The notes under the pieces: model-generated
The model's input: the letters and a program-made list of their open reading frames with translations, nothing else
Databases searched by the model: none
What the model was told of the DNA's origin: nothing
Assembly (NCBI GenBank): GCA_945871085.1
Contig: CAMBVX010000028.1
Location: forward strand, 1-33,068
Reading direction: 5' to 3'
DNA length: 33,068 nt
From: Opitutus sp. GAS368
GTDB lineage: Bacteria > Verrucomicrobiota > Verrucomicrobiia > Opitutales > Opitutaceae
Made by a program: the position numbers and the translations under genes
Shown here: in pieces, positions 12,837 to 33,068 of the stretch
Numbering within the stretch: the first letter of the stretch is position 1
Layout of the letters: each line of letters opens with the position of its first letter

Positions 12837-12851
12837 TGCGCGGGCGCAGGA

Positions 12852-15639: not shown

Positions 15640-15740
15640 AGTAGATTTAGTAGAGTAAATCCCCTAGCTTTGAGCTTGCTCAGCCAATCGGCAAATCCTT
15701 AATCGCGCCCAGACTCGCAACCTGACTTCCCCTCTTTTTT

Positions 15741-16649: not shown

Positions 16650-16686
16650 CTCGCGCCGCACCCGGTCTGCGGCAAAATCGCGCCTC

Positions 16687-18228
16687 ATGCTCGCGACGAT
16701 TACCTCCGCCGCCCTCCAAGGTATCGACGCCGAACTCGTTCACGTCGAAGTTAACGCGGGTGAGGCCGGCGAGCCCAAATGGTATCTCGTCGGTCTGGCC
16801 GACACGGCGGTGAAAGAATCGACCGACCGGGTTTTCACGGCACTCAACAACAGCGGGTTTCACCCACCCCGCACGCGCACGACGATCAATCTCGCCCCCG
16901 GCAACCTGCGCAAAGAAGGCCCGTTCTATGATCTGCCCATCGCGCTCGGAATTCTGGCCGCGACCGGCCAACTCAAATCACCCCACCTCGGCGATTGGCT
17001 CATCGCTGGCGAACTCAGCCTCTCGGGTGCCACCCGGCCCGTGCGCGGAGCCCTCGCCATGGCCCGCCTCGCGCGGTCGCTTGGCAAGCGCGGACTACTC
17101 CTTCCCTCCGTGTCCGCCGAGGAAGCGGCCCTCGTCGAAGGCGTCGAGGTTTACCAAATCGATTCGCTCGACCGCGCTGCACGTTTTCTCAGCGGGCAAC
17201 TTCCACTGGTGCCGCTCGACCCCAAAGCCGCGCGCCAACGCGCGAGCACTCCCGTCAGTGACGGCGCAGCCGATTTCTCCGAGATTAAAGGGCAGCACGC
17301 TCTCCGTCGCGCCGTCGAGGTTGCCGTCGCCGGTTCGCATAATATTCTGATGATCGGACCGCCCGGCTCAGGGAAGTCCATGGTCGCGAAGCGGATTCCC
17401 ACGGTGATGCCTGCCCCGACGCTCGACGAACACCTCGAAATTCTCAGCATCCACTCCGCTGCCGGGCGCACGATCAGCGGCGAGATGACATGGGGTGCGC
17501 GCCCTTTTCGTTCACCCCACCACACGGTCTCCGATGTCGCGCTGCTCGGCGGCGGCACAATTCCCGGCCCCGGCGAGATTTCCCTCGCCCACCACGGGGT
17601 GCTTTTTCTCGACGAACTACCCGAGTTTAAACGGTCTGCGCTCGAAGTCCTGCGCCAACCCCTCGAAGACGGCGATGTGACCATCTCGCGCAGTGCTGGC
17701 AAAGTAACGTTGCCGTGCGCGTTCATGCTCGTGGCCGCGATGAACCCCTGTAAGTGCGGGTATCTGGGAGATCCGCGCCACGAATGTCGCTGCTCACCGG
17801 GTGAAATTCAGCGCTATCGCGCGCGTATCAGCGGACCATTACTCGACCGCATTGACATTCACATCGAGGCCCCGGCTCTCTCCATTGCCGAGTTGCGCAA
17901 TGAAAAGCTCGGCGAACCCTCCGCTCCGCTTCGTGACCGCGTCCAAGCCGCGCGGTTACGGCAGCAGCAACGTTTTTCCGGCACGAAAGTCACCGCCAAC
18001 GCGCGCATGACCAACGCGCACATCCGGAAACATTGCGCGATCGACTCCACGCTCGGTGACCTGCTGCAACAGGCGATGGAGCAACTCAGCCTCTCCGCCC
18101 GCGCCTACGATCGCATCCTGAAAGTTGCCCGCACGATCGCCGATCTCGCGAGCGCCGAAAAAATCGAGGCCCCTCACCTCCTCGAAGCCATCCAATACCG
18201 CAGCCTCGACCGCACAGTGTTTTATTGA
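16687..18228 (+). CDS. comM: ComM/YifB-family Mg-chelatase-like AAA+ ATPase
   Basis: This 513-residue protein has the three parts of the ComM family. The N-terminal Lon-protease-like region (residues 1-165) starts [15 protein letters not shown]. The AAA+ core has Walker [11 protein letters not shown] near 222-231, Walker [11 protein letters not shown] near 310 and the conserved MNPCKCGY motif near 352. The C-terminal Mg_chelatase_C domain (about 400-510) ends SLDRTVFY. In naturally transformable bacteria ComM is a hexameric branch-migration helicase that helps integrate incoming DNA. The gene is intact. Its last 485 bases occur again at 32148-32632, so its 3' third may have been supplied by an inserted element. 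It stands 37 bases downstream of the HD-domain gene and converges on the sulfatase block. Confidence 0.94.
17744..18228 (+). repeat. 485-bp direct repeat, copy 1 (3' end of intact comM)
   Basis: This is the proximal copy of a directly oriented repeat whose distal copy is 32148-32632. Both are exactly 485 bases with no gap. My hand alignment counts about 53 mismatches (about 89% identity). The homology starts in the codons for NPCKCG and ends at the stop codon. Nothing outside these limits aligns. The longest identical runs are 41 bases (beginning at 17810) and 39 bases near the 3' end. Confidence 0.9.
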
Positions 18229-18247
18229 GCCCTAGCTTTTCAAAAAT

Positions 18248-18263
18248 CGACCCGCGAGGGTTG
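18248..18263 (-). terminator. Candidate terminator of the sulfatase block
   Basis: The stem CGACCC / GGGTTG with loop GCGA lies 8 bases beyond the stop of the last sulfatase gene. Read on the - strand, the hairpin is followed by ATTTTTG. The + strand flank is A-rich instead of T-rich, so termination should act mainly on the sulfatase transcript. One base pair of the stem is mismatched and one stem is short, so the assignment is moderate. Confidence 0.45.
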
Positions 18264-18270
18264 AGAAAAA

Positions 18271-19692
18271 TTAGGAGCGCTTTGGCGCTCGCCCGAGGAC
18301 CGCGCGCGGAAGCAGCTTGCCGGTCTCGCGGTCAAACGAATCGGCCGGGCGCGGCGACGGCACCGCATCCGCCGTCTCCTTCCGCCATTCGTCCAGCTGC
18401 GACCGCAGATTTTTCAACGTGTCCGCATATCTCGCGTCCCCCGCCAGATTCACCAGCTCCTGTGGGTCCTTCTCGACATCGTAGAGCTCCTCGGCCGGGC
18501 GCGGCTGCACAAAACAGTTCATCTGCGCCTCGTTCAATTTCCCTTCTGCGTGCAAACGTCGCATTTCTGCGAACGTCGGATTGTCGAACTCCGCCGGCGT
18601 GCCCGGCAGATCCGGCCAGAAGTTGCGGATGTATTTGAACCGCGTCGTTCGCACCGACCGCTCGCAGGCCGCGAAATCGTGCCAGTTGTGTTCCGCAAAC
18701 ACGCGGTCGCGGATTGTCGCGGACGGATCGCTCAGCAGCCGCCGGAAAGATTTCCCCTGAAACGTCGGCGACGGATCCAAACCCGCCAGCTCCAGAATCG
18801 TCGGCGCCAAATCGATCGAACTCACCAGACTCCCGCATTGGCTTCCGGGCTGGATTTTCCCCGGCCACCGCACCAGTAGCGGTGATTGAATTCCACTGTC
18901 ATACACGCTCGTTTTGCACCGCGGAAAGGGCCGGCCGTTGTCCGTGATGAAGAACACCGCGGTCTGATCCAAGACTCCCTGCCGCTCGAGTTCCGCCAGC
19001 ACCTTGCCCACGTAGATGTCCAGCCGGCCAATCTCGTCGTAATATTTCGCGAGGTCCGCGCGGGTCGGTGGTGCATCCAGCAGGAACGGCGGCACCTCGG
19101 TCTCTTCGGGCCGGTGGGGCACGTCCAGCGTGCCGTCGAAATACGGCCGGTGCGGATCGATCGAGGCCAGCCACATGAAGAAGGGCTTGTCCTTGGGCCG
19201 CTCCTGCAGCGTTGAAATCCAATCGACGCAACCGCTCCCGTCGTCGGTGGCGGTGGGCCGCGCCCCTGCCGCGGCATGCACCACATCGAAGCGATTTCGC
19301 GCCGCCGGCCCCAGATGCCATTTGCCCGCCTGCGCCGTCCAGTAGCCAGCCGCCTTGAGCTTCTCGACGAAGGTGACCTGGTCGTTGGGCAACGGCATGT
19401 GCAGCATTTCCGCCCCCGTATTATGGGGATACCGCCCGGTGATAATACTGCTTCGGCTCGGACTGCACGAACTGCAGGTGTTGAACGCCCGCGTGAACTT
19501 CATCCCCTCACGCGCCATCCGGTCGAGGTTCGGCGTCCGCACGCCCTTGCAGCCGTAGGGCCCACTATCTTCGGCGCCGAGGTCATCGGCGATGATGAGC
19601 ACGATATTGGGGCACGACGCGATGGGACCATGCTCGGCGTGCAACCAGGACGCGGCGCTCAAAACCGAAAGACTTAGTAGGAGTGGCTTCAT
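18271..19692 (-). CDS. Secreted Cys-type sulfatase, heparan N-sulfatase-like (sulfatase A)
   Basis: This sulfatase family S1 enzyme hydrolyses a sulfate ester or sulfamate on a glycan. The start ATG 19692 (MKPLLLSLS) begins a signal peptide cut after WLHA, giving 473 residues and an expected periplasmic location. The metal-binding IADDLGAEDSG and the formylglycine motif CSPSRSS followed by ITGRYPHNTG are intact, as is GKWHLG. The later ITDNGRPF and the DSGIQSPLLVRWPG / HNWHDF segments resemble sulfamidase-type (S1_8-like) members. The Cys must be oxidised to formylglycine by FGE or anSME, neither of which is in this window. It is the last gene of the - strand block. Substrate assignment is by resemblance only. 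Confidence 0.9.
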   Translation of the reverse strand: MKPLLLSLSVLSAASWLHAEHGPIASCPNIVLIIADDLGAEDSGPYGCKGVRTPNLDRMAREGMKFTRAFNTCSSCSPSRSSIITGRYPHNTGAEMLHMPLPNDQVTFVEKLKAAGYWTAQAGKWHLGPAARNRFDVVHAAAGARPTATDDGSGCVDWISTLQERPKDKPFFMWLASIDPHRPYFDGTLDVPHRPEETEVPPFLLDAPPTRADLAKYYDEIGRLDIYVGKVLAELERQGVLDQTAVFFITDNGRPFPRCKTSVYDSGIQSPLLVRWPGKIQPGSQCGSLVSSIDLAPTILELAGLDPSPTFQGKSFRRLLSDPSATIRDRVFAEHNWHDFAACERSVRTTRFKYIRNFWPDLPGTPAEFDNPTFAEMRRLHAEGKLNEAQMNCFVQPRPAEELYDVEKDPQELVNLAGDARYADTLKNLRSQLDEWRKETADAVPSPRPADSFDRETGKLLPRAVLGRAPKRS

Positions 19693-19799
19693 GGTAAACG
19701 GTGGCGGCACCGACGCGGGCTCGTCCGGAGCGCCGCGGCACCGGAATTCAACGCCTCAAAGGTAAGGAGCCTTTTCGCATCGGGGATTGCAGGGCCGAT

Positions 19800-20471
19800 C
19801 TATTGCTTCGGGGTGATTCTCAGATTTCCGATCATCCCAAACCCATTGCACCACAGGCCAACGCTGCCGCCGGAGCGTTCGGTGAGTCCGATCACGACGA
19901 GACTCGGCTGGGTCGCGCCATTGACGAAAACGCTGACCTTGGGCTTCGCGACCATAATTTTGACGTGAAACCAAGCGTCGCCATCCGGCGCCGGCGTGAG
20001 GGGCTTCTCATACTGTCCGGTCTTCTCTTGGCGCAGGCGCTGCCAGGGCCATTCCGGTTCGGAGACGTATTGCACAGCATGGGATTTCTTCTCCGCGTCG
20101 TCGGCACGGAAGTTGAACGACCGGAAATAGACCGCGTCGTAGGTCTTCGCGTCCCTCACGTGAAAGGCGACGCCGATGAAGCTGCTACCGGACGGCGCGC
20201 TTTTGCCCTTGGCGTCAAATTCGATGACGCCGTCGGTAAACTCGAAGCCATCGAGCCAGACGACACTCGCGCCGCGCTGGTTGAACTCAATGGCGGGCGC
20301 GCCGTCTTTTTCGACGAGCTTAGTCTGCGCCGTCGCCCCTTTCCAGCCCGTGCCCGGGGGGACCGCTTTTAAGTCGGGGGTCAAGGTCTCAGCGGCTCGC
20401 GCCTGACTGCTGAGGATCACGAAGGCGCAGAACGTGATGAATAACGTATGTTTCAATTTGGGGTGGCTCAT
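19800..20471 (-). CDS. Secreted concanavalin-like (DUF1080-type) protein
   Basis: This 223-residue protein has a signal peptide (KHTLFITFCAFVILSSQARA). A single beta-sandwich follows. Strands such as VVWLDGFEFTDGVIEFDAKG, SFIGVAFHVRDAKTYDAVYFR and WFHVKIMVAKPKVSVFVNG are the signature of LamG/DUF1080-like concanavalin domains, some of which are 3-keto-glycoside hydrolases and others carbohydrate-binding. No catalytic residues can be named. It stands between two sulfatase genes on the same strand (58 bases after one, 107 before the next). A role in binding or cutting the same glycan is plausible. It is the only candidate in the block for anything other than desulfation or uptake. Confidence 0.8.
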   Translation of the reverse strand: MSHPKLKHTLFITFCAFVILSSQARAAETLTPDLKAVPPGTGWKGATAQTKLVEKDGAPAIEFNQRGASVVWLDGFEFTDGVIEFDAKGKSAPSGSSFIGVAFHVRDAKTYDAVYFRSFNFRADDAEKKSHAVQYVSEPEWPWQRLRQEKTGQYEKPLTPAPDGDAWFHVKIMVAKPKVSVFVNGATQPSLVVIGLTERSGGSVGLWCNGFGMIGNLRITPKQ

Positions 20472-20529
20472 AGGATTTTTGTGATGGGAATGACCGGAAT
20501 CTGTTTTTCGGAATGGGTGGACAGGTGTT

Positions 20530-21993
20530 TCATGATTTCGGTCTTGGCATGTTGGCAGCGGTGTCCCTGCGCCAAGAGTTGAGCCGGTGCTGGAGTTCCT
20601 TCACGAGCAGCGGATTCTGGGCAGCGATATTTTGTTTTTCGCCGAGATCGGCGGCGAGGTTGAAGAGCTCGACGCTGCCGTCCTCCAACCATTCGAGGAG
20701 TTTCCAGTCGCCGACACGAACGCTGCTGCACGGACCGTTGCCGTGATTGCCGTAGTGCGGGTAGTGCCAGAACAACGCCTCGTGCAGGGGTTTGGTTTCG
20801 CCTTTGAGCAACGGGACAATACTGACGCCGTCCCGGTGCAAGTCGGGCCGGGCGGGAAGGCCGGCGGCTTCGAGCAACGTGGGGAAGAAGTCGGTGTTGA
20901 TGAAGGGCACGTCGCAGGTGCTGCCGGGTTTGGTCACACCGGGCCATCTGACGAAACACGGCTCGCGCACGCCGCCCTCGTAAAGCCAACCTTTGCAACC
21001 GCGCAGCGGTCGGTTGCTGGTGATGAAGTGGCCGCCATTATCGCTGGTGAAAAGGATGATAGTGTTGTCGGCGAGGCCGAGTTCGCGGAGCTTTGTGAGC
21101 AGGCGACCGACATTCGTGTCCATCGTCTCGATCATGGCGGCATAGGTCGCATTGACCTGCTGCTCCAGCAGCTTGGGCGGGCGGTCCGAGCCACGCGCGA
21201 CGCTGCCTTCGTCATACGTCGGAGCCGATTTCACGTTGGGCAGTCCGAGCTTGGCCGCTTTGGCTTGGTATTTCGTCACCAGTTCCGGCTTCGCCATGGC
21301 GGGAATGTGCACGTCGTAAAACGCGAGGTTGAGAAAGAACGGCTGATCCGGTTTGCGCTGTTCGATGAGTTTCATCGCTTCACTCGTGAGGCGGTCGCAG
21401 AGGTGTTCGCCCGGTTTGCCATCCTCAAGCCCGGGCACGCCGCGCGAGTGGTAGTTATTTGGGTCGGGCTTCTTGTCCATGCCGTAGGGCCAGAAGTAGC
21501 TCGGCGGCAAGCCGCCGGCGTGTCCGGCGATGTTCACGTCGAACCCCTGATTCTGCGGGTAAAAGCCTACGTCACCCAAATGCCACTTGCCGACGTGCCA
21601 CGTCGCATACCCGGCGCTTTTCAACACTTCGGCGATGGTCACTTCTTCAAGCGGCAACTCCATCTTCATTTCAGCGGGCAGGAATTTCCCCGATTTGCCG
21701 TTGCCGGGGATGTAATCGGTGAGCTTTAGACGCGCCGGATACCGCCCTGTCATGATGGCGGCGCGCGACGGTGAGCAATATGGACTGGAGGAATACGCCT
21801 GCGTGAACCGCATGCCTTCGGCGGCCAGTTTGTCGAGATTCGGCGACTCGTGAAAACGGCTGCCGTAACACGATAGATCCGCCCAACCGAGATCGTCGGA
21901 AAGGAGGATAATGATGTTGGGTTTGGCGGGCGGCGGCGCGGCAGACACGGCCGGCGCAGCCAGTAGCAGTATAACAAGGGAGGAGTATTTCAT
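20530..21993 (-). CDS. Secreted Cys-type sulfatase, S1_16-like (sulfatase B)
   Basis: This 487-residue enzyme has a signal peptide ([18 protein letters not shown]). The metal site [15 protein letters not shown], the formylglycine motif [14 protein letters not shown] and HVGKWHLG are all intact. The central [16 protein letters not shown] and [16 protein letters not shown] stretches are like those of S1_16-type polysaccharide sulfatases. The catalytic-core repeat FTSDNGGH and the [22 protein letters not shown] segment complete the family pattern. It is clearly different from the other three sulfatases in the block, so the set was not formed by recent tandem copying. A 178-base gap upstream could hold its own promoter. 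The substrate is unknown. Confidence 0.92.
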
Positions 21994-22171
21994 GCTTACG
22001 CGGGTTTGCTGGGTGCGGGGTGAAGGAGCGAGAAAATGACTGCTGAAAAGGCCAAAGCGCTGGCTAACTGAGAGGGGGTGGGCAAATAGGGCTGCAGGTG
22101 TGGCGCGTTGCCATTGCGGCGTAGACTTCAGCGTTCGCGTCCATGAAAGCCGTCAACCGTTTGTTCTCTTC

Positions 22172-23674
22172 CTAATCCAACTTGCGCGAGTTTCCCGCCG
22201 GGACGTCTTCGTCATCGTAAGGCGTTTTCCTTGGTTTTGCCGCATCCTTCCCGACAATCTCGCCGAGTTGCTCTTTCAGCTTCTTCGCAATGTCCGGATG
22301 CTGCTCAATGACGTTGTTCGTCTCCGCCGGATCCATTTGCACGTTGTATAATCCACTCAAGGCCTCCGGTGCGCCAAGGTTAGCCTTCTTGATCCGTGCT
22401 TCGACCAGCTTCCACGGTCCCTGCCGGACGGCGTATCCAAACACCCCCGCATGCACTTCGGCCAAATGCACCGGATGATATTCTTCCGGCTTACCAAGCA
22501 ACAAAGGTAAGATGCTCGAGCTGTCTTCGCCCGCATTGGCCGGAAGATTGGTCCCAACGAGCTCAGCGCAGGTAGCCATGAGGCTGTTGAGGGAAATCAC
22601 CTGATCGCAAACGGTCCCGCTTTTCACCTTACCTGGCCAGCGAACGATGAGCGGCTCCCGGTGGCCACCTTCCAGCAAACTGCCTTTGTAACCACGAAAC
22701 GGCCGGCTGGGATCGTGGCCCGCTCGCAACAGGGCCGGGACGCCGGTGCCGGGGCCATGGCCGTTATCCGAGGCGAAAATAACCATCGTATTCTTATCCA
22801 AGCCCAGTTTTTCGAGCGCATCCAGCACCGCACCGACGGCGGCGTCGGTCTGCAAAATCAAGTCACCGACCCGATTGATGCCACTCTTTCCCCTAAATTC
22901 CGCCGTCGGCATCAGCGGTTCGTGCGGTATAGTGAACGTGTAATAGAGGAAAAACGGCTTCTTGTCGCCCGCTCGGGCGCGCAGGTAATCCTCCACCTTT
23001 GCGGCCAGCGTCGGCATGATGTTTTCAAATTTCCACCCCGGAACCATCGGCCCATTCTTATGCACGAAAATTTCCGCATTCTTGCCGGGAAACTCCGCCG
23101 TCGGTTGTGCGGTTAGGCGGTCGTTTTTGATGAAGGCGAACGGCGGTTGGTTGGGAACATGCGTGCCAAAATACTCGTCGAAGCCGCGCGTGATCGGGCC
23201 GTTGGCGATGGGCTGCGTGAAATCAGGATCGGATTTCCTGCCTTTGTCCTTGAACGGCCAGTCCCAGCCCAAATGCCATTTGCCGATACAGGCGGTGTGG
23301 TAACCATGCCGTTTCAGCAGCGCCGGCACGGTCAACCGTCCTTCCTCGATCAGCGGTGGATCGTAGGAATCAAGCACGTTGACCGGCACGCGGGAACGGA
23401 ACGCGTATCGCCCCGTGAGAATACCGTAGCGCGACGGCGTGCAGGCGGACGCACTGTGGGCATCGGTGAACCGCATTCCCTCAGTCGCCAACCGGTCGAT
23501 TCGCGGAGTAGGCAGCTTCGACTGCGCGTTGTAACAAGTCACATCACCATAGCCGAGGTCGTCCGCCAGAATATAGACAATGTTCGGTGGCGGCGATACC
23601 ACTGGCACGGCCGCCGCGGGCGCACCTGCAGCAAGTGAGGCAACGGTCAGGAGTGGGAATAGCATCCTCTTCAT
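22172..23674 (-). CDS. Secreted Cys-type sulfatase, S1_15-like (sulfatase C)
   Basis: This 500-residue enzyme starts at ATG 23674 with a signal peptide (KRMLFPLLTVASLAAGAPAAA). It shows the metal site LADDLGYGDVTCYN, the formylglycine motif CTPSRYGILTGRYAFRSRVP and IGKWHLGWDWPF. FASDNGHGPGTG and FRGYKGSLLEGGHREP follow. The middle variable region (FDEYFGTHVPNQPPFAFI) sets it apart from the other three sulfatases and resembles S1_15 members. Like them it needs Cys-to-formylglycine maturation by a gene outside the window. It is separated from the next upstream sulfatase by 100 bases and from the next downstream one by 178 bases. Confidence 0.92.
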   Translation of the reverse strand: MKRMLFPLLTVASLAAGAPAAAVPVVSPPPNIVYILADDLGYGDVTCYNAQSKLPTPRIDRLATEGMRFTDAHSASACTPSRYGILTGRYAFRSRVPVNVLDSYDPPLIEEGRLTVPALLKRHGYHTACIGKWHLGWDWPFKDKGRKSDPDFTQPIANGPITRGFDEYFGTHVPNQPPFAFIKNDRLTAQPTAEFPGKNAEIFVHKNGPMVPGWKFENIMPTLAAKVEDYLRARAGDKKPFFLYYTFTIPHEPLMPTAEFRGKSGINRVGDLILQTDAAVGAVLDALEKLGLDKNTMVIFASDNGHGPGTGVPALLRAGHDPSRPFRGYKGSLLEGGHREPLIVRWPGKVKSGTVCDQVISLNSLMATCAELVGTNLPANAGEDSSSILPLLLGKPEEYHPVHLAEVHAGVFGYAVRQGPWKLVEARIKKANLGAPEALSGLYNVQMDPAETNNVIEQHPDIAKKLKEQLGEIVGKDAAKPRKTPYDDEDVPAGNSRKLD

Positions 23675-23774
23675 TTTTGTTCTTCGTTCAGGGGTTCATT
23701 CCGTCCTGCCGCGCGGCGTATCTTTCAGACCCGGCGTAAAGACTAGCGTCCACTCCGGAAGCGGCGACGATCGG

Positions 23775-25097
23775 TCATTCGTCCTTATGCTCATTGGCGG
23801 ATCTCAACTTCACTTTGCTGTTCTTTTCGTCCCATCCGTTCCACCAGGACTTTAAATCTTGCGCCAGTTGGCCGCGCTCGCCTGTGCGATCGACCGACTC
23901 ACCGATGTCGGCGCGTAAATCGAACAGCCCTTTTTCCGATTTGACCCGGACCAGTTTCCACTCGCCCTGCCGGACCGCATAGTCCCGGTCGTTCCACTTC
24001 CAAAACAGCCGTTCTCGCGGGAGGTGAGCGTTCTGATCCTTAAGCAGCGGGAGCAGATTAACGCCGTCCAAATTCCATCCCGGCTGCGCCTCAACACCCG
24101 CCAGCGCCAGCGCCGTCGGCAGGATATCCAGCGAGATGATCGGCTCGTCGACCACTCTGCCCGCCGGCACTTTTCCTTTCCATTGGATGAAGAACGGCAC
24201 CCGGATGCCTCCTTCCCACAGCTCGATCTTCGAGCCGCGCAATGGATCGTTTCTCGACTCGTTGATCGCACTGCCCGCAATCAAAGGCCCGCCATTATCA
24301 CTCAGGAAAAATATGACGGTTTCACTTTCTAACTTGGTCGCACGCAATTTTTCCAACACCTGTCCGACGGCATCGTCCAACGCCAGCACCATGGCCGCGT
24401 AGCTCGCACGCCGGCGGTCAGCGATGTGCGCCGTCTTCTTCAGGTATTCCTCGGGTGCCTGCAGCGGAATGTGAGGAGCGTTGAAACTCAGGTAGAGGAA
24501 GAAAGGGTTGTCTTTCTGTTCTTGAATGAAGCGGCAACCTTCCCGCGCGATCTCAAAGGTGAGATACTCTTTCAACTCCGCCGGCTCGCGACCCCGCATG
24601 ATTGCGCCCCACTTCGGATCATTTGCTTTAAAGTAATCGTGCATGCCGGAAAGAAACCCAAAAAACTCGTCGAAACCTCGCTGCATCGGGTGAAACTCCG
24701 GCTTTTCGCCCAGATGCCACTTCCCGAATGCGGCGGTCCGGTAGCCGCATGATTTGAGGCGGTCCGCGATGGTCGTCTCAGTCAACGGCAGCCCCCAACT
24801 TGTCCCGGGGGCGGGGTTGCCCTCAAATCCAAACCGATCTTGATAACGCCCCGTCAAGAATCCCGCCCGGGACGGAGCGCACACCGGGGCGCTGACATAG
24901 CCGCTGGTAAACCGCAGTCCGTTGTTGGCAATCGAGTCGATATTGGGCGTCGCAAATTCTCGGCATCCGTGCACACCAACGTCGGCGTAGCCTAGGTCAT
25001 CGACGACCATGAGGATAATGTTCGGCTTGCTGGCCCCGGCCAAGCTGGACGCGGCAACGCTCAATGCGAGAGCGGTGATTCGATGGAGGATGTTCAC
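23775..25097 (-). CDS. Secreted Cys-type sulfatase, arylsulfatase A-like (sulfatase D)
   Basis: This 440-residue enzyme begins with GTG at 25097, one base after the TonB-receptor stop codon, so its translation is probably coupled to the receptor. A signal peptide (NILHRITALALSVAASSLAGA) leads into NIILMVVDDLGYADVGVHG. The formylglycine motif CAPSRAGFLTGRYQDRFG is intact. FGKWHLG, FLSDNGGPLI and LRGSKIELWEGGIRVPFF follow. The substrate-pocket region (FDEFFGFLSGMHDYF) differs from those of sulfatases A-C. Direct coupling to the receptor suggests that it acts on the same glycan that the receptor imports. Confidence 0.92.
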   Translation of the reverse strand: MNILHRITALALSVAASSLAGASKPNIILMVVDDLGYADVGVHGCREFATPNIDSIANNGLRFTSGYVSAPVCAPSRAGFLTGRYQDRFGFEGNPAPGTSWGLPLTETTIADRLKSCGYRTAAFGKWHLGEKPEFHPMQRGFDEFFGFLSGMHDYFKANDPKWGAIMRGREPAELKEYLTFEIAREGCRFIQEQKDNPFFLYLSFNAPHIPLQAPEEYLKKTAHIADRRRASYAAMVLALDDAVGQVLEKLRATKLESETVIFFLSDNGGPLIAGSAINESRNDPLRGSKIELWEGGIRVPFFIQWKGKVPAGRVVDEPIISLDILPTALALAGVEAQPGWNLDGVNLLPLLKDQNAHLPRERLFWKWNDRDYAVRQGEWKLVRVKSEKGLFDLRADIGESVDRTGERGQLAQDLKSWWNGWDEKNSKVKLRSANEHKDE

Positions 25098-25098
25098 C

Positions 25099-28000
25099 TT
25101 AGAAGTCCACGGTCGCGCTTAGCTGGAATCCAATGGGATCCTGCATTTGCGCTGCGCTGACAATCGCCCGCGGGTTCGTCCAACCGTAATAGGTGAAGCG
25201 AGGGTCGCTGACGTTGATCAGACTGGCGGTCGACGCGGAAACGTTATTCGGAATCAGTTCGCGATTGTTCAACGCATTGCGGACGTTGAGCTGAACGCTG
25301 TAACCTAGGCGGTTGTTGAATTTACCCTTGTAGGAAACGAACGGATCGAAATACCACTCGCTCGGGCTGTAAAACCGCTGATTGAGGTCCGAAGTTCTCG
25401 TCGTGACCGGATACCCGGCGATAGTCATGTTCACCTCGCTCAACATGTAGCCGATCACCGCCTTCGCCCGCAGCCGGGTGGAGAATCCTGCCCGCCAGGC
25501 CTTCGAAAAATTGTAGACCAAGGTCGAGCTGAAGCGCCACTCGCGGATGCCCGGATTCGAAATGCCGTCGAATTGCCGCACGAGGAGCACCTCGGGCAGG
25601 AGCGAATTGCGGTATTGATCGAAGAGCGTGGTCGTTGATCCGGCATCGTTGATCGGAACCTTATCCCAGCCCTTGATGGGGGTCGCTCCCTTCGCGCCAA
25701 ACACCGGAGCACCGCTCGCGCTCGCGCTGACCACTGGTCGGATTTGCCCGGAGGCCGGATCGAGCGCATACCACTCGAGTTCCTGCATGCGCTTGAAGAC
25801 CGCCGGATCGGTGGCGTATTTCAGCCAGTCCGGCCCGATGCTCGACTTGATCGCGGCAGTCCGCCCGGCCGAGACCCGCACGTCCAGCTTGCGCCAGCGC
25901 CCCGTGAGTTCGATTTCGCTGCCGCGCGACACGGCGTTGGCGTAGAGTCGGTAGAAATCGATCGCGTTGTCGGCAGAATTATAGCCCGGCGCGGCAGACT
26001 TCAGATAATAGTCGTTGAAGTCAGGCAAACCCAGCGCCTGCGTCCGGCCCCGTTGGAGATTGATATAGCGAGCCTCCTGATCGAAAACGAACTGCCGGAG
26101 CCGGATGTTGCCGAAGTTGTTGCCGGCATCCTGATTCGTGATCTCGTTCTTGTATTGATTGACGCGCAAGGTCAGGCCGCCCAGCACGAAGCGAACCCCA
26201 TACTCCTTGTTTTGGCCGCTCGGGAACGGATAGAGAGAACCGTCGATATTGTGCGCAGCCGACGGCGTCGGATCGTTGTTCGTGGAAACATTATAGTGAA
26301 CGGAGAGCCAGTTCAGCGGGTGCAACACCGCCGATCGGCTCGTATTGAGCAGCGTCGGGCGGCCCTGATACCGGTCCCAGGGGATGGTCGTGTAGAACGG
26401 CGCCAGGCCCGTGAGCGGCGACAGCGAATTGGTGACCGGATCTAGCTGTTTATCTCTGCTCGTGTCATAGCGGCGACTGTAGGTCAGCACTAGGCGGTCT
26501 TTCAGGAAGTAGCCCTGATAGACCAAGGCCCTCGAAAAATCGGACGCCTTTCGGCCAGTCGCGACGTTGACTCCACCCTGCTCGAACATTCCCACCCGAT
26601 AGGCCTTCCCGTTCGCATCCGTGAATGTCCACGCGCCGAACGGGTCCTGCCCGCCCCAAGTTCCGTAAGCCGTGCCGTGACTCGCCGGATCGAGATAATC
26701 GCGAGTCAGGAACGCCCGATTCGTCGCCGTCATGTAGCGGGCCGTCGGGCCGAAATCCGCCTTCGCATTCGCGGCGGTGATCACACTGGGCGCGACGAGT
26801 CTTCCGGCGGCGTCCACGTCGTCCAGGATAGTGCGGCGAAACACCTGCGTGATGGTCATCACCTCATTTTCCGATGCCGTGGCCACGAAGCGCTGCCGCC
26901 CGGCATACGCTCCCATCCACTCACCCAGTCGCTTGGCCGTATCGAATTCATAGGCGAGTGCGATCCGAACCTCCTTGCTCTGTGTCTCCCCCTTGTTCGC
27001 GAGTTCCTGGCCCTCCAAGTAGAGTTTGCCAAAATTTGGATTGGCTTCGCGATTGGCCGCGTTCGCGGCGCGATTGGCCGTCCCTGCTGCGCCGGCCGCG
27101 ACGGGATCCAGCGGAGTGTAGCCGGCTTTGTAGCGATAGGTATTCGGATCGATGTTCAGATTAGCCTGCACCGGCGAGTAGAGATTGGTGTTTTTCAGCC
27201 TCGTGGCCTCGTAGTTTGCCCCAAACTCCATGAACAAGCGGTCGTTAATCTGCAGGTTGCCGAGCGCAGATACCGTTTTGGCGTTCACCAGATTCGGATG
27301 TGTTCCGCCGTAGATTCCATACTTGCTGAAGGGGTAAATTCGATCGTCGAGAAAAGTGGCACCATTGAGATAGTCCGGCGCCAGCTTCAGTGCAGCGTTG
27401 ATGTATTGGCCCTGCTGCCGGACCGCGGCCGAATAACGGTAGCTGTAGATTCCCGGAGCATCGGTAGCGCCGTGGGTGAAGATCGGCGACGTGGAGACAC
27501 CGGCGGCCCAATTGAACAGGTAGGCGTTTGAGCCAGGATTGAGCGCGAGACCTTGGGCATCCGGACTTTTGTCCGGCGTGTCGAAAGGAGTGCGATTGCC
27601 CATGCCGGGATTTGTCCACGGCGTTACGCTGTCCTTGGTCATGAAGTAAACGGGCAGTGACGCGCGGCGATCCATGTATTCACTATGCACATCGATTCGC
27701 AGCCGGCGGAACGGCGTCCATCCCAAGCTGCCCGTCACACGCTTATCCTTCGTATAGTATCCCTCCATGAAGTAGCGCTTGTCGCTGAGGAGCCCCTCGA
27801 CCCGGAGGCCAAGCCGGTCACGCACGAGCGGAGCGTTGTGATCGACGGTGACGCGACGCGACCCGTAGCTGTCGATCGTCAGTTGCGCCCGGGATTTCTG
27901 GCGCGCCAGTTGCGGCCGGTTGAATTGCGTGTCGTTGATCCCGGATGCGCTGCCCAGTCCGAAGAGCCCAGCGTTTGGGCCACTGGCCATGGTGAAACCG

Positions 28001-28494
28001 CCCTCCGACGAATTGTAGTTGTCGTAAGGCAGCACGGTCGTGAAGAAATTGCGAGTGCTGGTCGCCTCAGCGAGGCCGCGCGAGCGGCTTTGGGGGGAAT
28101 TGATCGTCGCGCCGCGGCCGAAAAATTGAGCGTCAATGCCCGCCAGTTCCATGCCCGTCTCGGTGTTGGCGCTGTAGTTGAAGGCGTCATCGGCGGAAAA
28201 TGCCCCGATGTCGGCGAGAAACTCCGGCGTCATGACGGAGACTTGCGAGGCGACATCGCGGTAGTCGGTTTTCAGGCGGCTGCCAGACAGGGTGCTGCTG
28301 GCAAGATAGCCGGTGTCCGAGCTGGCCTCGATCACGAAGGGCGACAGAGTCACCGCCTCTTCTTTCGCCACCGTGGCTGCCGTTGAGGCTGGGGGAGCTT
28401 GCTGCGCCCGAGCGGTGTGTAACGCTACGCTTATTACAGGGACAATGCTGAGGACCAGACAGACGCGGAGGAGAAAAAACTGCGAAGGGATCAT
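25099..28494 (-). CDS. TonB-dependent outer-membrane receptor
   Basis: The receptor imports a ligand through an outer-membrane beta-barrel powered by TonB-ExbBD. The ATG at 28494 starts a clear signal peptide (FFLLRVCLVLSIVPVISVALHTARAQQ) and gives 1131 residues; the frame is open to 28869, but that extension has no signal. After the signal come a TonB-box-like segment (EEAVTLSPFVIEAS), a plug (about residues 55-190, with SGPNAGLFGLGSASG) and a long barrel ending in the aromatic residue of LSATVDF. There is no N-terminal carboxypeptidase-like domain and no SusD gene beside it, so this is not a Bacteroidetes SusCD pair. It heads the sulfatase block and diverges from the sensor kinase gene, which suggests induction by the imported glycan. 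Confidence 0.92.
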   Translation of the reverse strand: MIPSQFFLLRVCLVLSIVPVISVALHTARAQQAPPASTAATVAKEEAVTLSPFVIEASSDTGYLASSTLSGSRLKTDYRDVASQVSVMTPEFLADIGAFSADDAFNYSANTETGMELAGIDAQFFGRGATINSPQSRSRGLAEATSTRNFFTTVLPYDNYNSSEGGFTMASGPNAGLFGLGSASGINDTQFNRPQLARQKSRAQLTIDSYGSRRVTVDHNAPLVRDRLGLRVEGLLSDKRYFMEGYYTKDKRVTGSLGWTPFRRLRIDVHSEYMDRRASLPVYFMTKDSVTPWTNPGMGNRTPFDTPDKSPDAQGLALNPGSNAYLFNWAAGVSTSPIFTHGATDAPGIYSYRYSAAVRQQGQYINAALKLAPDYLNGATFLDDRIYPFSKYGIYGGTHPNLVNAKTVSALGNLQINDRLFMEFGANYEATRLKNTNLYSPVQANLNIDPNTYRYKAGYTPLDPVAAGAAGTANRAANAANREANPNFGKLYLEGQELANKGETQSKEVRIALAYEFDTAKRLGEWMGAYAGRQRFVATASENEVMTITQVFRRTILDDVDAAGRLVAPSVITAANAKADFGPTARYMTATNRAFLTRDYLDPASHGTAYGTWGGQDPFGAWTFTDANGKAYRVGMFEQGGVNVATGRKASDFSRALVYQGYFLKDRLVLTYSRRYDTSRDKQLDPVTNSLSPLTGLAPFYTTIPWDRYQGRPTLLNTSRSAVLHPLNWLSVHYNVSTNNDPTPSAAHNIDGSLYPFPSGQNKEYGVRFVLGGLTLRVNQYKNEITNQDAGNNFGNIRLRQFVFDQEARYINLQRGRTQALGLPDFNDYYLKSAAPGYNSADNAIDFYRLYANAVSRGSEIELTGRWRKLDVRVSAGRTAAIKSSIGPDWLKYATDPAVFKRMQELEWYALDPASGQIRPVVSASASGAPVFGAKGATPIKGWDKVPINDAGSTTTLFDQYRNSLLPEVLLVRQFDGISNPGIREWRFSSTLVYNFSKAWRAGFSTRLRAKAVIGYMLSEVNMTIAGYPVTTRTSDLNQRFYSPSEWYFDPFVSYKGKFNNRLGYSVQLNVRNALNNRELIPNNVSASTASLINVSDPRFTYYGWTNPRAIVSAAQMQDPIGFQLSATVDF

Positions 28495-28573
28495 AGATGT
28501 AATCAGGGGGGTATCCAGGCGACGAACCGGGTCGAGCGGTTGCGTCAGCGTGGAAAAAGCGGGTCCAATAACA

Positions 28574-28609
28574 ACCGTGCGATCCTCCCCCATTCGGGGG
28601 AGTAACGGT
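28574..28609. promoter_or_regulatory. Perfect C/G palindrome in the divergent receptor-kinase promoter region
   Basis: CTCCCCC-ATTC-GGGGGAG (28585-28602) is a perfect 7-base inverted repeat with a 4-base spacer. Outer arms ACCGT (28574-28578) and ACGGT (28605-28609) flank it. It is the outstanding symmetric element in the 124 bases between the TonB receptor start (28494) and the sensor kinase start (28619). Its place fits an operator for the neighbouring NarL-type regulator. On the + strand its right arm (GGGGGAG) also resembles a ribosome binding site 16 bases before the kinase ATG, so a leader hairpin is a second possibility. Confidence 0.5.
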
Positions 28610-28618
28610 CGCGGTGCC

Positions 28619-30712
28619 ATGATTGCATGCGCGCGGATGGCGGGTTTTGCTGCCGGAGTGAAATCAGCCGCCGTCAACCTTCGGACAGCTACCCTCGCAG
28701 GCCTCGCGCTGTTTGGCCCGTTCAAGGAATGCGTCGCACAGGAGACGCCGCTCCACACCGCGGCAGAGGTGCAGCGACTGTCGCCGGAAGAGGCAAGGCA
28801 GCACCGCAAGGCAAGCCTACGGGGCGTGGTCACGTTCACCTGGAACACCACGCCGACAGAATTCACCATCGAAGACCAAACTGGCGCTGTATGGTTTCCA
28901 GCTGCTATCCTTCCTCCTGCGTGTCAGTTAGGAGCCGACGTGGAGGTTGAAGGCTTAACCGACTCGGGTGTCTTCGGACCATTTGTCCGCGCGGTCAGCG
29001 TGCGTCCGCTCGGCCCCGGCACGCTCCCTGCCGCGCGCCGGGTTTCTTTTGATGAACTTCCGACTGCCCGACTTCACGGCCGGCGAGTGGAGGTGACAGG
29101 GATTGTGCGCGGCCAGCGCGTGAATCCGGTCGCCGGTCTCGATTGGCTTGCCCTCGAAATCTCGAACGGTAGCGGACGTGTAACCGTCAACCTGACCCAT
29201 GAAACCACCGCCCATCCTGAACTGATTGATGCCGAGGTGAGAATCCTTGGCGTCAATCTGCACAGCACCGATTCCCAACAACTGGCGTTCCTGCCGATGA
29301 TCAACGCCCATTCTCTGGCTGATGTGGAAGTGATCGCTCCGGCTAATCCACGGCCGTTTGCCCAACCTCCGACGCGCCTCGACAATCTGATGCGAAGCGC
29401 TGGGACGGCTGGGACTGGTCATCGTGTGCACATGCGTGGCGTCGTCACCTTTGTCAGCCGGCAAGATTGGTTCTACTTTCAGGATGAATCGCGGGGTATT
29501 CGTGTGTCGCTGCGCGAACCGTCGCGCCCAGCCGTGGGCGAAATCGTGGATGTCGTTGGATTCCCCGAACCCGGAGCTTTTTCCCCGATTGTGCGCGACG
29601 CCGAGTGGCGGTCCACGTCCGAAAAGCGATCCCCTCCGGCGCCCATTGTCAGCTTGGAGGAAGGCATGAAACACGACGGGAGTCTGGTCGTGATTCAGGG
29701 CCGCTTGCTTGAAGTCACGCTGGCCGATCGGAAAGCCGTCCTGACCCTTGAGGACGGAACCCAGCGGTGCCGGGTCCACATCCTCGACGTTTTTTCGCGG
29801 CGCTGGACGGAAGGAAGCATATTGCGGGTGACGGGTGTGAGCACAGTCGCGAACAGCGATTGGGAAACGCTGGTTGCCCGCCGGCAGCCACCGGGTTTCT
29901 CCCTCCTCGTGCCGAATCCGCAAGGCGTGATCGAGATTCAGTCCGCACCTTGGTGGACACCGACGCGCGCGGCGTGGCTGATTGCTGCGGTGGCGGCGAT
30001 GCTGTGTTGCGCTCTGGGAACTGTCTGGTTGCAGACCCGCAAACGCCTGCGTGAAAACGCCGCCACTCGGAAAGCGGCCCACGCCCAATTCGTCGCCGTG
30101 CTGGGCGAGCGCAATCGTATTGCCCGTGAAATCCACGACACCCTCGCGCAAGGATTCACTGGAATCTCCGTTCAGCTCGAAGTGATTAACGATCGATTGC
30201 AGGATGCACCAGTCGGTCTCCGCCAGCATCTGGATCTCGCCCGGGAGTTGGTGCGCTCCAGCCTTGAGGAGGCACGCCGTTCGGTCTGGAACCTGCGGGC
30301 TCAGGCCCTGATTGAGTCGGGCTTGAGCGACGTGTTTGGCCGTCTGGGTCGGCAGCTCACCGACGGAGGCGGAGCCGTCTTCGAACTGACGGTCGACGGC
30401 AGCCCGCGACGACTTCCAATTGACGTCGAGAACAACCTGTTGCGAATTGGCCAGGAAGCGATCACCAACGCCGTGCGCCATTCCGGGGCAAAGCGCATCG
30501 CGCTTTGTCTGGAATATCATCCCAACCGTATTCGCATGGTCGTGAGCGACGACGGCAAGGGTTTTGATCCCTCGCATCGGCAACCGTCCCCCATCGGCGG
30601 CTTCGGCCTGCCTGGCCTGCGGGAGCGCGCCGCGGCCATGCACGCAACCCTGGAAATTACCCGGCGTGCGGCCGGCGGGACGAACATCGAACTAGCGGTG
30701 CCGCATGTCTGA
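28619..30712 (+). CDS. NarL-type sensor histidine kinase with OB-like periplasmic repeats
   Basis: ATG 28619 gives 697 residues; the open frame before it overlaps the receptor gene and is unlikely. The N-terminus acts as a signal/anchor (TATLAGLALFGPF...CVAQ). The periplasmic part (about 42-445) shows four beta-rich, OB-like units. Units 1 and 3 are similar to each other (GVVTF...F-IEDQTGAV...GVFGPFVRA against GVVTF...FYFQDESRGI...GAFSPIVRD). A membrane helix (AAWLIAAVAAMLCCALGTVW, about 449-470) leads to HisKA_3, with phospho-acceptor His506 in REIHDTLAQGFTG, and to a HATPase_c domain with N-box EAITNAVRHSG (Asn617) and DDGKGFDP. Its stop overlaps the regulator gene by 8 bases. It probably senses a periplasmic glycan and controls the divergent receptor/sulfatase block. 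The ligand is unknown. Confidence 0.88.
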   Translation: MIACARMAGFAAGVKSAAVNLRTATLAGLALFGPFKECVAQETPLHTAAEVQRLSPEEARQHRKASLRGVVTFTWNTTPTEFTIEDQTGAVWFPAAILPPACQLGADVEVEGLTDSGVFGPFVRAVSVRPLGPGTLPAARRVSFDELPTARLHGRRVEVTGIVRGQRVNPVAGLDWLALEISNGSGRVTVNLTHETTAHPELIDAEVRILGVNLHSTDSQQLAFLPMINAHSLADVEVIAPANPRPFAQPPTRLDNLMRSAGTAGTGHRVHMRGVVTFVSRQDWFYFQDESRGIRVSLREPSRPAVGEIVDVVGFPEPGAFSPIVRDAEWRSTSEKRSPPAPIVSLEEGMKHDGSLVVIQGRLLEVTLADRKAVLTLEDGTQRCRVHILDVFSRRWTEGSILRVTGVSTVANSDWETLVARRQPPGFSLLVPNPQGVIEIQSAPWWTPTRAAWLIAAVAAMLCCALGTVWLQTRKRLRENAATRKAAHAQFVAVLGERNRIAREIHDTLAQGFTGISVQLEVINDRLQDAPVGLRQHLDLARELVRSSLEEARRSVWNLRAQALIESGLSDVFGRLGRQLTDGGGAVFELTVDGSPRRLPIDVENNLLRIGQEAITNAVRHSGAKRIALCLEYHPNRIRMVVSDDGKGFDPSHRQPSPIGGFGLPGLRERAAAMHATLEITRRAAGGTNIELAVPHV

Positions 30713-31328
30713 CCCAATCCGAATCCTGATCGTCGACGACCACCTCGCCCTTCGCATTGGGCTGACCGCGATGCTCGCGCCCCATCCTCACCTGAAGGTG
30801 GTCGGCGAGGCGGGCGACAACGCCAGCGCACTTGCCGCCTGCGCCACGCTGGCCCCGGCGGTTGTCCTGATGGACTTGCGCATTCCCGGTGGCGGCGGAG
30901 TGGATGCGACGCTGGCGATTCGCCAGCGATGGCCGGCCACACGGGTTCTGATCGTCACCACCTATGACGGCGACGAGGACATTCACCGGGCCATTCAAGC
31001 CGGTGCAAGTGGCTATCTATTGAAAGGGTTGTCCAGTGCCGAACTGATCCGTGCAATCGAGGCAATCCACCGGGGCGAAACCGTGATGCCACCGAACGTC
31101 GCCGCGCGCTTCCGCCAGCGCGAACTACGGAAGGACCTCTCCCCACGTGAACTTGAAGTGCTGAGCCTCATGGTGGACGGCCGCAGCAACAAAGAAATCG
31201 CCGAGCAGCTCAGCATCGGCGAGGAGAGCGTGAAATCCCACTCGAAAGCGCTTTTTCAAAAGCTCGGCGTTGCCGACCGCACCCAAGCTGCGATCGAGGC
31301 GATTCGCCACGGTATCGTCCACCTTTAG
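30705..31328 (+). CDS. NarL/FixJ-type response regulator
   Basis: This 207-residue protein has a receiver domain (about 5-120) with acidic pair Asp11-Asp12, phospho-acceptor Asp57 in VVLMDLRIPG, the conserved Thr near 85 (IVTTYD) and Lys near 106 (YLLKG). A LuxR-type helix-turn-helix follows (about 142-200: LSPRELEVLSLMVDGRSNKEIAEQLSIGEESVKSH). It overlaps the kinase gene by 8 bases, which marks the two as a cognate pair. By position the pair should regulate the divergent TonB receptor/sulfatase genes. Phosphorylated dimers of this family bind inverted repeats, and the C/G palindrome in the divergent region is the obvious candidate site. Confidence 0.93.
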   Translation: MSDPIRILIVDDHLALRIGLTAMLAPHPHLKVVGEAGDNASALAACATLAPAVVLMDLRIPGGGGVDATLAIRQRWPATRVLIVTTYDGDEDIHRAIQAGASGYLLKGLSSAELIRAIEAIHRGETVMPPNVAARFRQRELRKDLSPRELEVLSLMVDGRSNKEIAEQLSIGEESVKSHSKALFQKLGVADRTQAAIEAIRHGIVHL

Positions 31329-31383
31329 GCCGGCAAACTGGTTGCGACCACGCGCCGATGTCGAGCCACTCCGGGAGATTGGC

Positions 31384-31545
31384 TGATCAACGTTTCCGTC
31401 CTGAAGCAAATCGACGCAGGGGGAATTTATACTGCAGTCGTGGCCAGCCTGAGCCTGGGCAATTAGGTGCAGGTTTCCCGCGTCCTCGGCGCGACTGGAT
31501 TAATCCTCGTCCAGATCTACGAACTACCCTGAGTTTGACTATAGA
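31384..31545 (+). pseudogene. Possible decayed HTH/recombinase remnant in a gene-poor stretch
   Basis: The 357 bases between the response regulator and the XRE gene hold no intact gene. In one + strand frame (from ATC 31387) the translation runs VLKQIDAGGIYTAVVASLSL, a stop, then VQVSRVLGATGLILVQIYEL and further stops. The spacing and the VSRVL core recall the helix-turn-helix that ends many resolvase-like or ParB-like proteins. The match is by eye and weak. The right part of the stretch (about 31640-31685) is unusually A-rich. It may be the scar of the recombinase that carried the island, or simply non-coding DNA. Confidence 0.25.
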
Positions 31546-31685
31546 GCGCTATTATTATGCGCCGAATTGGCACGTTCCAAAAGGCACCCTTTGAGACAGC
31601 GCTGTGGCCCACAGCGATACGAGGCAAGGTGTTCATCCCGAACAGGGGGGATTTAGAAAAAGAAAATTTCGATGATTTGAACGCC

Positions 31686-32147
31686 TTAACCCTGGGCGTC
31701 GGCCGTAACCCTTGAGGTTCGACCCAAAACTCGATTAACTCTTTCGACATAGGGCCCCCACGGAATCTTCACCCCCCTCTCCCACCGGCCGAGCGTTGTC
31801 GGATCAACTGCGAGTTCGACGGCAAGTCGCTTTTGCGACCAACCGAAGCCCAACCGGTAGGCGATGAGCTTTTGACCGATGCCCTGATTCTCCGGCTTCG
31901 GACGGGGATCATAGCCTAAAAAGGCGATGATGGCCGGTAGGTGCTTTATCTCAGGTTCCCGCCCGCCGGTCTCCCAATTCCACACGCTTGTCGTGTCAGC
32001 GCCTACCTCCTTTGCTACGTCCCGCTGGAACAGCCCGAGGTCCATCCGACGTCTCCGAATGTGCTCTCCAAGCGTTTCTGGAAACTCGGGATATCCGGAT
32101 GCCTTTGGCTTTAGGCAGGTTATAGCAATCTGACTGATTGGCAACAC
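31686..32147 (-). CDS. XRE-type regulator with two helix-turn-helix motifs
   Basis: This 153-residue DNA-binding protein contains two XRE-like HTH units. The first (about 27-80) reads [36 protein letters not shown]. The second (about 92-145) reads [36 protein letters not shown]. Relatives with the '[17 protein letters not shown]...VWNWE' start are widespread single-gene regulators, often near mobile DNA. The apparent start is GTG 32147, whose outer base directly abuts the comM repeat. The frame stays open into the repeat, so the original start could have been cut off or replaced by the junction. Its target is unknown. It could control the island or its excision. Confidence 0.82.
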
Positions 32148-32632
32148 ACCCCTGTAAGTGCGGATACCTGGGAGATCCCCGACACGAATGTCGCTGTTCG
32201 CCGGGTGAAATTCAACGCTATCGCGCGCGTATCAGCGGACCATTACTCGACCGCATCGATATTCACATCGAAGCCCCGGCGCTTTCGATTGCTGAGCTGC
32301 GCAATGAAAAACTCGGCGAGCCCTCAGCCCCGCTGCGTGACCGCGTCCAAGCGGCTCGGTTACGGCAACACGGTCGTTTTTCTGGCACGAAGGTCACCAC
32401 CAATGCCCGAATGACCAACGCGCACATCCGAAAACACTGCGCGATCGATTCCACCCTCGGCGATCTCCTGCAACAGGCGATGGAGCAACTCAGCCTATCC
32501 GCACGCGCCTACGATCGCATTCTCAAAGTCGCTCGCACGATCGCGGACCTCGCGAACGCCGAAAAAATCGAGGCCCCTCACCTCCTCGAAGCCATTCAAT
32601 ACCGCAGCCTCGACCGCACCGTGTTCTACTGA
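32148..32632 (+). pseudogene. comM: comM 3'-end fragment (485-bp direct repeat, copy 2)
   Basis: This fragment encodes only the last 160 residues of ComM, from [14 protein letters not shown] to SLDRTVFY, and lacks the Walker A and B motifs and the N-terminal region. No proper start exists; a TTG 10 bases upstream would give a 164-residue product of doubtful meaning. Against the intact gene I count four amino-acid differences (QQ to HG, A to T, S to N) but about 53 nucleotide differences, nearly all at third codon positions. The divergence therefore accumulated while both sequences were under selection as full genes. This points to two separate comM lineages and not to a recent copy of the neighbour. 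Its reading frame is still unbroken, so its truncation appears recent. Confidence 0.88.
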
Positions 32633-32717: not shown

Positions 32718-33068
32718 CTACAAGAGCGACTTAGCCATGCGGAAATTCGTAAAGCTCGAGCCTTGATAATCAACCTCCTGCTGCTTCAAGACCTTGAATC
32801 CACGCTTCTGAAAGAAGGACCGGGCAGTCGTGCTCGCCTCGGTGAAAAGGCGCGCCACCCCGAGTCGCCGCGCGTCCTCTTCCATCTGCAACAGCAGCGC
32901 AGAGGCTATTCCTTTGCGCTGATGGTCGGCATGGACATAGATCGCCTCGACCTGCCCGTTGGCCGCAAACTCGGCGAAACCGCGCACCGTCCCTCCCACC
33001 TCAAACACCAACGTCGTGCGACCTGCCTGCCGCGCCCGCCACTTCGCCACGTCTGGCGCCGCGCCGGC
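32718..33068 (-). CDS. GNAT-family N-acetyltransferase (5' end beyond the window)
   Basis: The visible part covers about 116 residues and has no start codon of its own except a GTG at 33050. The frame is still open at the window edge, so the gene very probably begins outside. It has the GNAT acetyl-CoA-binding signature: strand VEAIYVHADHQRKGIASALLLQMEEDAR with the Q-R-K-G-I-A pyrophosphate loop, then LFTEASTTARSFFQKRGFKVL. Such enzymes transfer acetyl groups to amines of small molecules, proteins or antibiotics. The substrate is unknown. If the island interpretation is right, this gene was the original downstream neighbour of comM. Confidence 0.88.
   Translation of the reverse strand, partial: AGAAPDVAKWRARQAGRTTLVFEVGGTVRGFAEFAANGQVEAIYVHADHQRKGIASALLLQMEEDARRLGVARLFTEASTTARSFFQKRGFKVLKQQEVDYQGSSFTNFRMAKSLL

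Follow-up and report, generated by a model that had tools for sequence, protein, structure and literature searches.

How can one chromosome carry a complete comM gene and, 14 kb away on the same strand, a second copy of its tail that differs from the first almost only at silent sites? The question is raised by the window, which here means the whole stretch of 33,068 nucleotides from Opitutus sp. GAS368 that was analysed (contig CAMBVX010000028.1). The features on which the answer depends are as follows.

16687-18228, plus strand: intact comM, encoding a YifB family Mg chelatase-like AAA ATPase of 513 aa (TIGR00368; Pfam ChlI, Mg_chelatase and Mg_chelatase_C)
17743-18228, plus strand: tail of the intact comM, the comparison partner (tail alignment)
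17746-17754, plus strand: uninterrupted target stretch CCC TGT AAG, with TG at 17749-17750; no adjoining element arm was found
18229-31328, strand not given: segment between the tails (Pfam scan and ORF reading)
31686-32147, minus strand: two-domain HTH (XRE) gene, reading away from the fragment (Pfam HTH_3/HTH_31)
32105-32152, plus strand: element arm of the attR side, ending ..GATTGGCAACACACCCC (aligned with the arms of seven other junctions; the likeness is partial)
32148-32632, plus strand: comM tail fragment, an open reading frame (similarity to the intact comM tail)
32153-32154, plus strand: inferred TG crossover dinucleotide, the first two bases of the Cys355 codon (from the ends in G032, G149 and G057)
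32718-33068, minus strand: GNAT acetyltransferase-like gene, cut by the contig end (below NCBIfam cut-offs)

The full-length model TIGR00368 gives 566 bits to the intact comM against a cut-off of 362, and 160 bits, below the cut-off, to the fragment. Upstream of comM lie coaE-like and HD-domain-like genes, and the same is the case in G001, G003, G004, G006 and G008 (G numbers designate the genomes compared). The segment between the tails encodes four sulfatases, a 3-keto-disaccharide hydrolase-like protein, a histidine kinase and a response regulator, and in addition a 1256-aa ORF without a Pfam match that looks by eye like a TonB-dependent receptor.

Silent differences between the two tails

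If the tail of the intact gene (17746-18225) is paired with the fragment (32150-32629) at an offset of 14404, so that 17746 stands against 32150, the two differ over 160 codons by 53 nucleotides and four amino acids, and the recount thus agrees exactly with the numbers that the original prediction had obtained by hand. The differences fall on the three codon positions as 3, 2 and 48, and the replacements are Q427H, Q428G, A437T and S489N in the numbering of the intact protein; a fifth one, N353H, lies ahead of the compared codons, within the attachment arm. The similarity sets in abruptly between MNP and C and ends with the stop codon, the longest exact run common to both tails is 41 nt, and the fragment protein is 96-97% identical to the tail of the intact ComM.

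Is this pattern that of two genes under selection? By NG86, the 160 codons hold 47.5 synonymous and 5.5 non-synonymous differences, which give a dS of 0.58, a dN of 0.0153 and a dN/dS of 0.0265 (codon bootstrap 95% interval 0.003-0.067). Comparison with orthologous comM pairs of the same divergence had been proposed by the original prediction as the test. The 28 pairs formed by the intact tail and those of G003, G004, G001, G008, G006, G007 and G038 (leaving out G005, G002, G031, G050, G061, G053, the G004 fragment and the window fragment) include 17 of similar divergence, with pS between 0.30 and 0.50, whose dN/dS ranges from 0.018 to 0.066 with a median of 0.032. The value of the tail pair lies within this range, and at the orthologue median about 6.6 non-synonymous differences (0.0316 x 0.58 x 362 sites) are expected against the 5.5 counted. 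It had also been argued that a truncated copy made inside this genome should have collected changes at all codon positions. When the same substitutions were placed at random in 2000 trials, they caused 34.6 amino-acid changes on average and never fewer than 24, against the four observed. Since the dN/dS of the pair is that of orthologous tails, a copy truncated inside this genome is very unlikely and a recent joining of two lineages is favoured.

All that speaks for a duplicate made within the genome is the physical proximity of the two copies, while a dS of 0.58 combined with an orthologue-level dN/dS and the outcome of random placement speak against it, and we regard such an origin as almost certainly wrong, unless the fragment was itself a selected short gene. 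For the latter there is no clear support: the tail fragments of other genomes are partly open and complete (G032, G149 and G127:C13), partly truncated (G183 and G127:C64) or interrupted by stops (G057 and G039), and a conserved short gene was therefore rejected as a candidate.

The fragment need not have stayed under selection to the last, because it shows an excess of replacements. Against each of six relatives it exceeds the intact copy by 4.5-5.5 non-synonymous differences, with a dN/dS of 0.037-0.047 for the fragment and 0.018-0.034 for the intact copy; against a seventh relative, G038, it has three fewer. At residues 427, 428 and 437 the intact copy agrees with the six nearest relatives and the fragment deviates, and at residue 489 both copies deviate from the usual A. 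If the whole excess had accrued without selection, it would correspond to about 0.012 changes per site, which is small beside the dS of 0.58. To judge from these counts, the fragment may have passed through a brief period without selection before now.

The original prediction went one step further and stated that two full-length comM genes had diverged under selection and had been joined recently. The two lineages and the recent joining stand, but full length is not required: a tail carried by an element is also under selection whenever it completes a comM, and so the signature needs two selected tails and not two full-length genes.

HTH gene and attachment arm at the fragment

What lies at the point where the fragment begins? 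To its left lies the HTH gene, the open frame of which starts at the junction. The HTH protein is found at 19 places in 16 of the 200 family genomes, and at seven of these places it abuts a comM tail (this window, G032, G149, G127 twice, G183 and G162). In G024 the comM tail is 3.4 kb from the HTH gene and does not abut it, and the flanks examined at the other 11 places, 1-8 kb as a rule, gave no comM match. An eighth junction, in G057, has the arm and no HTH match.

In the window the attR arm stands next to the target half-site, so that positions 32105-32152, ending ..GATTGGCAACACACCCC, are followed directly by the TG core. The likeness of this arm to the others is partial, GTTGCC and TC-GTCA being common when read on the other strand. 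No attL or left arm was found at the intact comM: when up to 3 mismatches were allowed, the only match in the window was the one at 32145, and a more diverged arm would escape such a search. Two observations come together at this locus, the two-lineage signature of the tails and an arm of element type at the fragment. A contig of another genome (G024:C157) was considered as a recombinase remnant with HTH and was dropped, as Pfam gives HTH families and no recombinase.

Recombinase at the left end in relatives

If the fragment marks the right end of an insertion, what does the left end look like where it is visible? In four genomes (G149, G127, G057 and G032) the 5' part of comM is followed by a recombinase that reads towards comM, and the end sequence is nearly alike in all of them. 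The junction runs from comM to ATGAACCCCTG and then to GCGCT(A/T)CGTTGCCTTTCT, the point at which a large serine recombinase gene of the opposite strand ends. The recombinase of G057 contains Resolvase and Recombinase domains (L114: PF00239, PF07508). The left and right ends form an inverted repeat with 21 of 24 matching bases in G032, 19 of 24 in G149 and 18 of 24 in G057, and TG, the first two bases of the Cys355 codon, sits between the repeat ends. Inverted-repeat ends around a dinucleotide are the layout of a large-serine-recombinase attP that has been split by integration. We are inclined to regard the start of the fragment as the attR-side scar of an integrative element of the large serine recombinase type that inserted at the Cys355 codon of comM.

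The recombinase family is present in 7 of the 200 genomes. At E 1e-30 nothing in this genome matched it (of the 12 first-look candidates, 8 were scored), no recombinase was recognised in the window, and none is among the ten window proteins scanned by Pfam. The genomes examined showed neither a whole element nor a circular form or an empty site. The family also occurs at 12 loci in a collection of named genomes, four of which abut comM; three of these (L177, L179 and L186) are evidently the same contigs as those of G057, G149 and G032, and the fourth, L187, is independent. It belongs to a deltaproteobacterial MAG, in which a 42%-identical recombinase abuts a comM broken at residue 351.

As a minor observation, the junction recombinase ORF of G149 (L112, 9662-10972) matches the family only from about residue 165; the part before this differs in sequence, as though an internal deletion had occurred.

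How did the two tails come together?

On balance, we consider it probable that the two tails represent two comM lineages, about as far apart as species are, which have shared one chromosome only briefly, and that the fragment is the comM side of an attR junction. A segment with its own comM tail would have joined comM at the attachment point, either through a recombinase supplied in trans or through one crossover between the tails; comM would have stayed complete with the incoming tail, and the resident tail would have been displaced beyond the cargo. This order of events, the carriage of a tail by the incoming segment and the identity of the resident tail are inferred. An element that restores its target with its own 3' end should leave an intact target and, on the far side, a second end of another lineage, and both are found here. 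Against this explanation we count the failure to find a recombinase in the genome and the window, the missing left arm, the left ends elsewhere, which in the four genomes where they are visible carry a recombinase and not a comM tail, the neighbourhood of the GNAT gene, the lack of any whole element, circular form or empty site among the genomes examined, and the divergence patch within the genus, which extends beyond the comM stop codon; the slight excess of replacements in the fragment fits a phase of relaxed selection.

This neighbourhood deserves attention. The GNAT gene adjoins clpX (named by eye), not comM, in G001, G003 and G008; in five other genus mates a search at E 1e-15 found no GNAT. 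The clpX contig of this genome takes up at the end of the window: the two overlap by 19 bases, of which 18 agree, and the clpX contig continues the GNAT gene. Of the 26 genomes searched, 14 carry comM and clpX on a single contig, and in every one of them the distance between the two is about 29 kb to 3 Mb. A single clean insertion at the ancestral locus is therefore not enough to account for this neighbourhood; either this lineage already had comM and clpX together, or the event went along with a rearrangement. Downstream of comM, G001, G003, G004 and G008 have other genes than the window, and the comparison in G005, G007 and G002 spans 0.8-1.5 kb only. Two sulfatases with 26-36% identity to the window's own are encoded downstream of comM in G006, at a distance of about 3.5-7.6 kb and on the opposite strand; window positions 18229-31700 and the G006 DNA downstream of comM gave no match at the DNA level.

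Could the intact comM have been repaired instead? In this scenario an element had split comM, as in G149 and G032, and DNA from a relative, comprising an intact comM and the genes that follow it there, later took the place of the element's left part together with the recombinase, so that the fragment is the old resident tail. Homologous exchange of this kind would account for the missing recombinase and the missing left arm together and needs no tail-bearing element; the sulfatases of G006 resemble the arrangement behind the intact comM here, and recombination tracts over comM have been reported in Acinetobacter baumannii, where the portion of the source used here gives recent tracts in 35 of 386 genomes with complete comM, a number not above chance (PMC11472951). 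It requires, however, another crossover, in element DNA for which no homology is known; the downstream DNA of G006 does not match, the downstream genes of G001, G003, G004 and G008 differ, and the likeness to G006 may be accidental, as the genus is rich in sulfatases. We hold repair to be possible but doubtful. The fragment itself might also be the newcomer, if an HTH-arm with the comM tail of another species moved to the clpX-GNAT locus by rearrangement or scar transfer, and the intact comM was never interrupted. The fragment does adjoin GNAT, which belongs beside clpX, and G057 and G127 have several tail fragments on separate contigs; but comM at 14 kb on the same strand would then be a coincidence, and the fragment tail tracks the 5' part of comM at least as well as the intact tail does, which makes a newcomer fragment unlikely. 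As to an assembly chimera, the genome is a draft, probably metagenome-assembled, of 630 contigs with 4.3% contamination, and the contig ends inside the GNAT gene, which the clpX contig continues. Nevertheless, the tails share no exact match longer than 41 nt, which is little for a false join, and the junction of HTH gene and tail is found again in other genomes, so that an artefact of this kind is highly improbable.

Which tail is foreign?

The original prediction took the silent pattern as a direct argument for the foreign origin of one of the two ends. One copy is indeed foreign, but the pattern does not say which. When each tail was asked how well it tracks the genus distances of the 5' part of comM, as a mean over G003, G004, G001, G008, G007 and G038 (G006, G005 and G002 being left out), the fragment tail gave -0.021 (interval -0.112 to +0.068) and the intact gene's own tail -0.074 (interval -0.152 to +0.010). 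As a weak hint, the fragment tail thus seems to follow the 5' part slightly better than the tail now attached to it. The distances of relatives allow only a weak lean on which tail is native, because the tails of the genus look exchanged. Base composition was uninformative as a test of foreignness, the G+C of the segment between the tails being 0.60-0.62 against 0.60 for positions 1-16686; it is lower only in the HTH gene (0.57) and in the gap before it (0.54). As a marker of the resident tail we also tried the alcohol dehydrogenase-like genes (named by eye) that follow comM in four genus mates, and gave them up, since their homologue in this genome is only 53% identical.

Repeated tails in other genomes and seemingly patchy comM genes in the genus

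Is the displaced tail a peculiarity of this genome? Among the 115 genomes searched, 99 have a tail match, and in six of these (G000, G009, G024, G032, G057 and G016) at least two matches lie on one contig and strand. The extra pieces are mostly partial, and weak in G032 (E 8e-6) and G016 (E 3e-4); in G016 the extra piece lies upstream of comM, and in G024 a remnant of tail residues 121-161 lies 1.6 kb behind an intact comM. Insertion of a tail-less element leaves one tail only, and therefore tails must have been added.

The intact genes, too, appear patchy. Between G003 and G004 the pS is 0.05 and 0.09 in two 5' portions and 0.23 in the tail, and between G003 and G001 it is 0.17 and 0.19 in the 5' portions and 0.44 in the tail, while G001 and G008 (0.06, 0.14 and, in the tail, 0.07) show no step. 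By thresholds of our own, 12 of 45 pairs were flagged, eight with a more divergent and four with a closer tail, and 33 were not. The step between G003 and G004 lies at about nucleotide 1058, in codon 353; the flanks differ mostly by 2-4%, but values of up to 7% occur in windows ahead of the step and of 13% in one window about 1 kb downstream of comM, and the divergence continues past the stop codon into intergenic DNA. From these comparisons, comM tails look exchanged within the genus.

Tentatively, one may imagine that the last third of comM in this family is an exchangeable cassette: recombinase-linked elements would bring tails, comM would keep working, older tails would be pushed downstream serially, and intact genes would come to have mixed 5' and 3' histories. 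In that case mobile elements would reside in a competence gene and leave it functional. Contig C8 of G004 (L033, 2376-2861) holds yet another comM tail, next to an acyl carrier protein-like gene. This tail was rejected as proof that tails move between loci, since the acyl-carrier gene is only 78% identical to that of another G004 contig and C8 may therefore be contamination.

Relation to known elements

Elements that restore the gene into which they insert are well known from icd of Escherichia coli, where e14 and phage 21 provide a substitute 3' end with mostly silent differences and displace the resident end. That is a tyrosine integrase system, of which the integrase and the circular form are known; it is like the substitute-end model proposed here and unlike it in the type of integrase.

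In the part of their work on large serine recombinase elements on which we draw, Durrant et al. (2022, PMC10083194) give the magnesium chelatase/ATP-dependent protease gene as the site at which 12.4% of predicted site-specific integrases act, and they also report an enrichment of competence genes. Thus, comM as a target is not new as such. The target gene family of those elements is the same, and the ends of the related elements here are inverted-repeat arms around a dinucleotide; yet their insertions are described there as disrupting the target, whereas the window has a complete comM together with an additional, displaced tail, and no recombinase was found. AbaR/Tn6022 (Tn7-like) and Tsy elements also interrupt comM and, according to the sections cited, recognise the Walker B region via TnsF (PMC10293859, PMC11472951). 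The site studied here, MNPC, lies about 46 codons past an LDE motif taken as Walker B (residue 309), and the family is that of serine recombinases, unlike AbaR/Tn6022; no Tns genes are among the ten window proteins scanned, and the junction is at codon 355. In Dehalococcoides, islands with serine recombinases pile up at ssrA and leave serial copies of its 3' end, as far as the cited portion tells; there the target is an RNA gene with 20 bp repeats, and here it is a coding tail of 480 bp (PMC3146451).

Less expected than the targeting of comM are the intact comM with a displaced tail, the repeated tails on one contig in six genomes, and the seeming exchange of tails in the genus; a limited literature search found no description of comM tail exchange. 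Loss of comM lowers the recombination of foreign DNA, as stated in the part of PMC11472951 used here. If elements can enter comM and give it back a functional tail, counts of interrupted comM genes would underestimate how often comM is used as a target, and patches of silent differences inside intact comM genes would be a record of past visits. As a rule, an orthologue-level dN/dS between a gene and its fragment would mark a displaced allele and not a duplicate.

Other insertions into comM and minor observations

What else has entered comM? In G009 about 8 kb separate the 5' part from the tail, and a protein of this insert has a weak likeness to tyrosine recombinase, below the cut-off and without a Pfam match. 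In G103 (L046, 1462-9142) comM is split at the same codons by 7.7 kb with RND efflux genes (by eye), a stretch in which no recombinase was recognised by eye. G041 (L121, 10710-12410) has a different large serine recombinase near comM codon ~330, where comM is broken. Six loci on IMG/VR contigs carry comM tails (L189-L194). Here comM begins near residue 217 in L190-L192 and near residue 280 in L189, at a site other than that of the window, and serine recombinase-like ORFs adjoin it in L189, L190 and L192, not in L191; the break in L193 is close to the window's site, and in L194 comM is complete up to the contig end. Directly upstream of the comM start in L194 are two adjacent serine recombinase-like ORFs (1205-4954), one of which has an HTH match near its C-terminus.

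Finally, the window also encodes, 11 kb apart, two Rho-like proteins (transcription terminator, by eye) at 219-1487 and 12852-15038, the second of which contains a long low-complexity insertion.
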